From NCBI GenBank assembly GCA_947466585.1, contig CANIEU010000014.1, forward strand, positions 1-53,394: a DNA stretch of 53,394 nucleotides, in the 5' to 3' direction. Positions within the stretch are counted from its first letter, which is position 1, and each line of letters opens with the position of its first letter. Position numbers and translations under genes: made by a program. This stretch comes from Fibrobacterota bacterium (lineage in GTDB: Bacteria; Fibrobacterota; Fibrobacteria; UBA11236). This document shows, in pieces, positions 1,754 through 3,956 of this stretch. Below the pieces are notes generated by a model. The model made no database searches. It was not told where the DNA came from and worked only from the letters and a program-made list of their open reading frames with translations.

Positions 1754-2413
1754 TTACCAGCCCAATACGGCCGGCAAATCCCGCAAGCCTTTCAACACCA
1801 CCACAGAAGTACGCCCGGCGAAGGCGCCGTCCCCATGATCCACTGCGATGAACGGAATCTCCACCGATTCCGCAGCGTTGATATCCTGCACGGCATCGCC
1901 TACATAGATCGCTTCCTCCGGACGCAAGCCGTGCCGCGTAAGGAGGTCGACCAAATGCTCTGCCTTCATCGGCGGCCACCCGTGGATTTCACGGAACCAC
2001 TCGCGAATGACGAAGTGGTCCACCGTTCCGTCGATCACCTCTTGCGGCGTACCCGTCACCACGGCGAGCGGCATACCCCGCCGCGCGGCTTCCTCTAGAA
2101 ATTCGGTAACGCCCGGCATCAGCTGCATGCGCGGCCGCAGGCGGATATCTTCTTCGGCGAAACGCGCGAGCACGCGCTCCTGCTGCTCCGGCGTGATGTC
2201 TTCCCCACCCGACAGCACCTTGTACATCAACGGGAGTGCGCGCGAGCGCGACAGGCCTGCGTAGAGCAATTGCTGGTCGCGCACCGCTTCGCGTGAAAAG
2301 CCGAACTCCGCAAGCGCGAAACAGTAAGCGTCGAGCTTCAGCGTCATCGAATCCATGATCACGCCGTCAAAGTCGAGAAAAATCCACCGAGGGGACAAAG
2401 GTGCTTTCGACAT
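1754..2413 (-). CDS. HAD-superfamily hydrolase, phosphoglycolate-phosphatase-like
   Basis: Cytoplasmic phosphatase of the haloacid dehalogenase superfamily, 219 residues. Motif I is FLDFDGV (nucleophile Asp14, acid/base Asp16), motif II is VVTGT (Thr120), motif III is Lys150, and motif IV is YVGDAVQD (Asp173, Asp177). The helical insert between motifs I and II is a C1-type cap, as in phosphoglycolate phosphatase and beta-phosphoglucomutase relatives. The substrate cannot be told. Its ATG overlaps the stop of the upstream sigma-like gene (TGATG), so the two are probably co-transcribed, with a GC-rich palindromic repeat spanning the end of the upstream gene. The tail comes within 14 bases of the convergent yejE. 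Confidence 0.85.
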   Translation of the reverse strand: MSKAPLSPRWIFLDFDGVIMDSMTLKLDAYCFALAEFGFSREAVRDQQLLYAGLSRSRALPLMYKVLSGGEDITPEQQERVLARFAEEDIRLRPRMQLMPGVTEFLEEAARRGMPLAVVTGTPQEVIDGTVDHFVIREWFREIHGWPPMKAEHLVDLLTRHGLRPEEAIYVGDAVQDINAAESVEIPFIAVDHGDGAFAGRTSVVVLKGLRDLPAVLGW

Positions 2414-3123
2414 CAGCGAATTTCGCTCCTCCCCTCTCCCTCGGGGAGAGGGGGTCGGGGAGCCTGCCCCCGCGCAGGCGGGGGTGAGGGCTGGGTCAAC
2501 GTCCTAGATCCTTTGCCCAACTCCTGATCCAAAAACTCCAACGTCCGCTCGATGAGTTCCGGCGGAGCAGGATTCTCGTGAAGGAATTGCACGGGATCCG
2601 CGGCCATGCGGTACAGCTGTACGAATTCGTTACAGCCCTTGCAGAACTTGAGGTGCGTGCGGAAACGCAGCGCCGTCACTGCGGGCAATCGATGCTCGAG
2701 ATAGTCGTAGGCGAAGTCGGGAATCTTGTCGCACGGATAGACGAACACGGCGGCGAGGGAATTCATGCGAACACCCCCTTTCCATCGACCGCGCTCGGAT
2801 TCATGCGCGCGCGTACGCTCGGCGATGCGGTCGCAGACCTTGAAATGCGCCAGGCTGTACAACCACGTCGTCAATTTGGACTTCCCCTCAAAACCGTCCA
2901 GCCCCTTATGGGCCGCGAGAAAGGTTTCCTGCACCACTTCCTGGGACTCTTCCAGATCTCCCAGATGGCGGCGCGCATAGGCCAGCAAGCGCCCGTGCGT
3001 CGTGCGCACCAGCAGCGAAAAGGCCAGGCGCGCGCCGGCATCACCCGCCCGCAAGCGGGCGAGAAACACAGCCTCGTTCACTTCCTCGAAAGAAGGAACG
3101 ACAACCGTAGTAGCGGCCGCCAC
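2413..3123 (-). CDS. Sigma-70 region 2 (ECF-type) fused in frame to an anti-sigma-type zinc finger; region 4 absent
   Basis: 236 residues. Residues about 17-105 match ECF sigma region 2: a helical segment GRLLAYARRHLGD, then VVQETFLAAHKGL, then LTTWLYSLAHFKVCDRIAER, the -10-recognition end. The expected region 4 (-35 recognition) is missing. After a 15-residue linker comes MNSLAAVF... and a zf-HC2/anti-sigma-like zinc motif, His157-x3-Cys161-x2-Cys164. A near-consensus Shine-Dalgarno lies just before the internal ATG at 2766, so the zinc-finger half could also be made alone. The GTG start at 3123 has GGAG nine bases upstream. The last 25 or so residues (PSPPPARG, PLPEGEG) are encoded by a REP-like repeat. 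It could be a genuine fusion regulator or a decayed sigma/anti-sigma pair. Confidence 0.7.
   Translation of the reverse strand: MAAATTVVVPSFEEVNEAVFLARLRAGDAGARLAFSLLVRTTHGRLLAYARRHLGDLEESQEVVQETFLAAHKGLDGFEGKSKLTTWLYSLAHFKVCDRIAERTRAHESERGRWKGGVRMNSLAAVFVYPCDKIPDFAYDYLEHRLPAVTALRFRTHLKFCKGCNEFVQLYRMAADPVQFLHENPAPPELIERTLEFLDQELGKGSRTLTQPSPPPARGQAPRPPLPEGEGRSEIR
2431..2490. repeat. REP-like GC-rich palindromes at the 3' end of the sigma-like gene
   Basis: Two adjacent hairpins. The first has arms CCCCTCTCCC (2431-2440) and GGGGAGAGGGG (2443-2453). The second has CCCCCGC (2467-2473) and GCGGGGG (2478-2484) and is followed by TGAGGG. The second resembles the palindrome plus TGAGGG at 3774-3798. 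The element lies inside the coding end of the sigma-like gene and gives it a proline-rich tail, which suggests it was inserted there. Confidence 0.55.
2772..2781 (-). promoter_or_regulatory. Internal Shine-Dalgarno before an in-frame ATG inside the sigma/zinc-finger fusion
   Basis: On the minus strand AAAGGGGGTG sits five bases before the ATG at 2766-2764. This differs at one position from the perfect complement of the 16S rRNA tail. It falls exactly at the junction between the sigma-region-2 part and the zinc-finger part, where a separate anti-sigma gene would be expected to start. This is a reading of the sequence; internal initiation has not been shown. Confidence 0.5.
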
Positions 3124-3194
3124 TAAATGAGTCTCCGGAACTGGCGCATTGTTACAGCAATTTAAATCCTGACGTCTCCACTCTCCCGACCCAA

Positions 3195-3316: not shown

Positions 3317-3754
3317 TTAGCCTTTGCAGCCGCCCAAACCCTTGCAATCATTCTTGCCCTTGCAGCTGTGAGCCTTGCCGGCTTTGTCTGCGGGCATGCC
3401 CATCTTCTTCGCAGCGGCCTTCAGATCCTTCTCCGTCATCGAGCAACCACCCTGTCCCTTGCAGGAGTTCTGGCCTTTGCACGAAGAGGCGGCTTTCACA
3501 GAGGTGTCGACCGCGACCTTTTTGCCGAGGCTGGTGGAGTCATGGCCCTTGCAGGAGGTGTGCCCCTTGCACGAGCTATCGCTCTTCACCTTGCCCATGC
3601 CCTTGCAGCCGCTCTTGCCTTTGCAGCCTGACTTTTCGGTTTTGGAGGAGTCGGATTTGTCTCCGTGATGGGAGGCGTGCACCGGAGCGACGGCGACGAG
3701 GCCCGCAGCGATACCGGCAATGGCGAGCTGGGTGAGGATGGAGTTCTTTTTCAT
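3317..3754 (-). CDS. Secreted Cys-Lys-Gly repeat protein, possible metal-binding (bufferin-like) peptide precursor
   Basis: 145 residues with a Sec signal peptide (MKKNSILTQLAIAGIAAGL, cleavage probably after VHA). The mature part is low-complexity and carries four CKGxxxCKG units: GCKGKSGCKG, SCKGHTSCKG, SCKGQNSCKGQGGC and SCKGKNDCKGLGGC, with ten cysteines in all. A segment MTEKDLKAAAKKMG lies before the last unit. Cys-rich exported precursors with such repeats occur among periplasmic bufferin-type metallophores, but the modification partners expected for those (DUF692 and DUF2063 proteins) are not beside it. The ATG is preceded by AAAGGATC. It is flanked by a terminator downstream and a GC palindrome upstream, so it is a single-gene unit. 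Export looks clear; metal binding or modification is inference. Confidence 0.7.
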   Translation of the reverse strand: MKKNSILTQLAIAGIAAGLVAVAPVHASHHGDKSDSSKTEKSGCKGKSGCKGMGKVKSDSSCKGHTSCKGHDSTSLGKKVAVDTSVKAASSCKGQNSCKGQGGCSMTEKDLKAAAKKMGMPADKAGKAHSCKGKNDCKGLGGCKG

Positions 3755-3798: not shown

Positions 3799-3956
3799 TG
3801 AAGCTACAAAGTGTCGCGCCCGGTTCCCCACGGTGCATCACCTTGTTCTCGAACTTTAAGTCCCCGGTATGTACGGAATGTTATGGATACCGGTTTGGTT
3901 TCCTAAAAAATCCGCAGAAGGTCGAAATTGAGGTTGAATCCTCGATTTCCGGGTTA

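Follow-up and report, generated by a model that had tools for sequence, protein, structure and literature searches.

Within the window analysed here, a 53,394-nt stretch of DNA from a Fibrobacterota bacterium, positions 2413 to 3123 are occupied by an open reading frame (ORF) of 236 codons that combines sigma region 2, a ZAS domain and a C-terminal tail encoded by a repeat. The ORF, already noted in a preliminary description that gave no strand, lies on the minus strand, with a GTG start at 3123 and a TGA stop at 2415-2413; the plus-strand reading of the same interval is ruled out by a stop inside it. Scanning against Pfam placed a Sigma70_r2 domain at residues 38-105 (2809 to 3012, minus strand; E 3.2e-14, 52.9 bits for a cut-off of 24) and returned no region 4 match anywhere in the ORF. 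Of the two regions expected in an ECF (group IV) sigma factor, only region 2 is therefore present. With NCBIfam models, many partial sigma matches stop near residue 108, and the C-terminal half yields weak anti-sigma matches.

The C-terminal half carries a His-x3-Cys-x2-Cys motif together with an upstream Cys, the ligand set of a ZAS domain, spaced as in MseR. In the complete fusion, the zf-HC2 model aligns with residues 139-164 at 22.1 bits, marginally below its cut-off of 22.2. When the 117-aa product starting at ATG 2766 (2416 to 2766, minus strand, tail included) is scanned alone, the same model scores 24.5 bits, above the cut-off, at residues 20-45 counted from this ATG (2632 to 2709, minus strand). 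The zinc ligands are C12, H38, C42 and C45 in this numbering. The RsrA equivalog model reaches 22.6 bits with the ZAS part (cut-off 62.5). Exactly at the junction of the two halves, the Shine-Dalgarno-like site AAAGGGGGTG (2781-2772, minus strand) stands five bases 5' of the in-frame ATG at 2766-2764. In all these respects (region 2 in the N-terminal half without a region 4, a zinc finger in the C-terminal half, a ribosome site at the junction), the preliminary description was accurate. Region 2 and the ZAS part are 61% and 56% identical, respectively, to proteins of a congener, so the ORF is not a chance reading frame. An AlphaFold model of the fusion, made from the single sequence with no alignment, has a mean pLDDT of 41.5 and is too poor to interpret.

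A dispersed repeat at 2410 to 2500 on the minus strand, matched at 11 genomic places, encodes the last 30 residues or so of the ORF (2413 to about 2500). The tail is thus not part of the anti-sigma domain, whose own C-terminal end and original stop region have been lost to the repeat. The repeat is short and GC-rich, and the stop codon of the ORF overlaps the start of a downstream HAD-like gene (TGATG). On the other side, just upstream of the sigma gene, the gene at 3317-3754 (minus strand) encodes a Cys-rich protein with SCKG repeats that matches Cu_RiPP_BufA2, the model for a bufferin-type copper metallophore; the score of 43.5 bits falls short of the curated cut-off (60). A DUF692-like partner for this gene was not evident among the neighbouring ORFs listed. 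Preceding it, the element TTTGTAGCTT (3801-3810, minus strand) is also found before the msrAB genes of two congeners. It possibly represents a shared promoter or leader element; it shows no excess within the window.

The origin of the fusion was examined by comparing the source genome (G000; 2.24 Mb in 28 contigs, 98% complete, 0% contaminated, and the sole genome of its species in the comparison) with nine other genomes of the family, three from congeners and six from a second genus. In all nine, the matches to region 2 and to the zinc domain fall in separate open frames, roughly 300 nt apart. The first encodes a full sigma factor of about 214-234 aa containing both region 2 and region 4, and the second is a short, separate anti-sigma gene. 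A congener sigma, for example, scores 38.9 bits with Sigma70_r2 and 52.0 bits with Sigma70_r4_2, and its adjoining gene matches zf-HC2. Without exception, G006 of the second genus included, the TGA stop of the sigma gene overlaps the ATG of the anti-sigma gene by 4 nt (ATGA). This uniform arrangement is the outcome that the preliminary description had named as speaking against a special architecture, and it strongly supports the other possibility raised there, namely that deletion of region 4 and of the stop codon fused a sigma gene to its anti-sigma gene. The anti-sigma was found in 10 of 150 genomes of the phylum, all within this family, to which it appears to be confined within the phylum.

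The distance between the codon for E108 and the anti-sigma ATG is 33 nt in the source genome (2767 to 2799, minus strand) versus 320-374 nt in the relatives, where this interval holds the linker, the whole of region 4 and the C-terminus of the sigma factor. The net loss amounts to 287-341 nt relative to all relatives and to 299-302 nt relative to the three congeners and is always 2 modulo 3, so that the frame of region 2 was shifted into that of the anti-sigma and the sigma stop was bypassed. A relic of the ancestral overlap persists: ATGA is still present at 2763 to 2766 (minus strand), with the old TGA at 2765-2763. When the junction is read in the former sigma frame, it gives PSAVDGKGVFA followed by a stop, plausibly the old C-terminus of the sigma factor. 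Comparison thus shows that an operon of two genes, for an ECF sigma and a soluble ZAS (RsrA/MseR-like) anti-sigma, underwent one lineage-specific deletion of about 300 nt. The deletion removed the linker between regions 2 and 4 along with region 4 itself, while leaving the anti-sigma start and its Shine-Dalgarno site at the junction. The internal ribosome site of the preliminary description is, given the ATGA relic, the ancestral anti-sigma start; the idea of a dual product by design, a fusion plus a free zinc-finger protein, finds no support. Translation from ATG 2766 plausibly continues.

Since region 4 is present in every relative, and the species is represented by one genome, the true genome might carry an intact gene pair from which about 300 bp were dropped in assembly or binning. 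We consider such an artefact very unlikely. Inspection of the junction revealed no repeat that could explain a collapse, the contig of 53 kb belongs to the 28-contig genome described above, and the missing stretch is found on no other contig.

A region 4 relocated elsewhere in the genome was not found: the full congener sigma matches only the region 2 of the fused ORF genome-wide, with no second match even at an E value of 10. The best match to a region 4_2 model in the genome is one other ECF-type sigma factor, itself complete (C4:125342); the other matches inspected are to an RpoD-like sigma, response regulators and unrelated helix-turn-helix proteins. The remaining sigma factors of the genome are three of the RpoD/RpoS kind, and a scan of the fused protein against the contigs gave one unrelated region 2 match. 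A split sigma of the SigO-RsoA type was rejected, there being no region-4-only partner among the region 4_2 matches inspected.

These searches also bear on the proposal that both the fusion and a free anti-sigma, initiated at ATG 2766, are expressed, and that the latter now restrains another sigma factor. The Shine-Dalgarno-like site and the ATG have been inherited intact, and the ECF-type sigma encoded at C4:125342 would be available as a target. However, the lack of a second match at E 10 indicates that the latter is not close kin of the lost partner, and most anti-sigma factors are partner-specific (PMC7406223), making this proposal highly improbable.

An ECF-type promoter, TGTAACAATGCGCCAGTTCCGGAGACTCA, lies immediately upstream of the fused ORF (3128 to 3156, minus strand). 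The underlying motif, G[T/A]AAC-N17-GAC[T/A]NA, is found at a nearly constant 31-35 nt from the start of the sigma gene in all family genomes but one (9 of 10); the shuffled expectation is 0.004 genomes. A looser form is found before msrAB at 7 of the 8 family loci examined, where shuffled upstream sequence would yield a mean of 0.018. Both shuffle figures flatter the motif, which was partly derived from the sites under test. In congeners G001 and G002, msrAB is the divergent neighbour of the sigma gene and has the same element in front of it. A genus-wide scan with the stricter pattern TGWAAC-N17-GACTNA identified only two exact sites in the source genome, one before the fused ORF and the other, on another contig, some 20 nt 5' of the msrAB start (G000:C2:57145-57173, minus strand). 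The reversed pattern, used as a control, occurs 0-4 times per genome and once in the source genome; hence it is the placement of the sites, not their number, that is striking. G003 is the exception, with the motif absent before both its sigma gene and its msrAB. Separately, two msrAB genes in tandem were observed in a genome of the second genus (G006:C112:110877-113220).

The promoter sites and the zinc ligands, both evident in the sequence, suggest how the parent system operated. By analogy with MseR of Neisseria and RsrA of Streptomyces, a redox-labile ZAS protein most likely held the sigma factor and released it upon oxidation. Once free, the sigma would have used G[T/A]AAC-N17-GAC promoters to transcribe its own operon as well as msrAB, the gene for a periplasmic methionine sulfoxide reductase. 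Such an arrangement is most likely a known kind of switch for the repair of oxidised proteins. In the source genome, a promoter shared by the sigma operon and msrAB is in place, as expected of an msrAB-controlling ECF circuit, but with region 4 deleted there is no intact sigma to read it. The predicted target promoters thus persist although the sigma factor has lost its reader of the -35 element.

We propose that a single deletion of about 300 nt made the fusion and that, for want of region 4, the switch is most likely inactive or in the course of being lost; we assign this reading a probability of about 0.72. What remains of the protein would not be able to read the -35 element. Some features have the look of a very recent loss or else of a product that still works. 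The frame is open through all 236 codons, and both predicted promoters match the motif exactly. Of 37 positions in the region 2 part at which all nine relatives agree, 32 are retained, and the replacements are mostly mild (F-Y, S-D, Y-F, V-A, I-V). The ZAS part conforms to the relatives at 25 of 28 such positions, and all four zinc ligands remain.

Substitution distances were compared between pairs of genomes. By control genes, G000 and G003 are sisters (0.30 substitutions per site in uvrC and 0.38 in msrAB). Their distance in region 2 plus ZAS is 1.25, 4.2 times the uvrC value, versus 0.37 against a uvrC value of 0.23 for the G001-G002 pair (ratio 1.6). The higher ratio in the first pair argues for a weaker constraint on region 2 and ZAS. 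Speed alone is no proof of decay, however, since G003, whose sigma is intact, evolves equally fast and has no motif. The lack of the motif at both G003 genes suggests that the whole branch is leaving the ancestral regulation. We also noticed that region 4 of G003 is changed, reading VRVLLHRTRKQ versus VRVQLHRARRQ; this could reflect an altered -35 specificity. The simplest reading is that of a recent deletion in a system that was already under weaker selection.

The same observations leave some room for a regulator that works as one chain. Here the ZAS domain would fold onto region 2 in cis and mask its RNA polymerase surface; oxidation or loss of zinc would then free region 2 to bind the core enzyme, either using the -10 element alone to open the msrAB promoter or serving as a decoy. 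In known pairs, helix 4 of the anti-sigma binds region 2 whereas helix 1 binds region 4 (PMC7406223), so that a joint fold of region 2 and ZAS within a single polypeptide is still conceivable. The sigma2 and sigma4 domains have been called partly redundant in promoter binding (PMC8103513), and a working chain would agree with the intact region 2 and zinc ligands, the open frame and the exact match of both target promoters. Set against this, ECF promoters normally require contact at -35, and the fusion is found in one genome alone and is without precedent in the literature searched. Moreover, most of the conserved residues of helix 1 that would face region 4 have been kept, a sign of recent loss and not of an adapted fusion. 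On balance we regard a working single-chain regulator as unlikely, and its specific form, a self-inhibited, redox-gated protein that fires the msrAB promoter by the -10 element alone, as more doubtful still.

The locus offers a clean snapshot of a sigma/anti-sigma operon turning into a fused gene by a single deletion that shifts the frame where two genes overlap by 4 nt. The case is that of a single genome and is most likely a by-product of the deletion. It provides a natural experiment on whether an ECF sigma reduced to region 2 can still serve a preserved promoter. Were the single-chain regulator to prove real, an ECF sigma could lose region 4 and yet keep its regulon; if the gene is simply dead, its main lesson is one of caution, in that a domain fusion that looks striking in a single genome finds a ready explanation in the relatives.

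Fusions of ECF sigma and anti-sigma factors and split sigma factors have both been described (PMC8999054, PMC8103513). A region-2-only sigma fused to a ZAS domain was not found in the literature searched, a body of work that is incomplete in that most subscription journals fall outside it. ECF48, ECF52, ECF53 and ECF243 (IutY) carry C-terminal anti-sigma extensions with transmembrane segments and are released by proteolysis; a ZAS-type zinc finger is likely in the first three (PMC8999054). The ORF described here resembles these groups in having sigma and anti-sigma in one polypeptide but differs in that its sigma part is incomplete, with no region 4 by Pfam, and in that no membrane domain turned up in the domain scans. 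In the split sigma SigO-RsoA of Bacillus subtilis, RsoA works with the region-4 protein SigO (PMC8103513). Like RsoA, our chain has region 2 alone; unlike RsoA, it has no region-4-only counterpart among the matches inspected in its genome.

The closest parallels concern the ancestral operon, which points to a circuit of the Neisseria type, with an ECF/ZAS pair controlling msrAB, in this bacterial family. In the N. meningitidis circuit, sigmaE (RpoE), MseR (NMB2145) and msrA/msrB are linked, and the MseR ligands are C4, H30, C34 and C37 (PMC2893595). There, as in the family studied here, the sigma gene is directly followed by one for a soluble ZAS anti-sigma. The spacing of the ligands is identical (C, +26 H, +4 C, +3 C), and an autoregulation site and msrAB as a target are shared features, in our case as predicted from the sequence. 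Even the DoxX-like gene of the neisserial operon has a counterpart in G003, in which a DoxX/HvfX-type gene lies downstream of the anti-sigma. The source genome departs from the neisserial scheme in its loss of region 4 and in the joining of the two proteins into one chain. The RpoE2-HrsE-MsrAB system of Haemophilus influenzae (PMC7907618) is similar in its short cytoplasmic anti-sigma, its periplasmic MsrAB target and its operon with a DoxX-like gene; unlike in the fusion, RpoE2 and HrsE are separate and intact.
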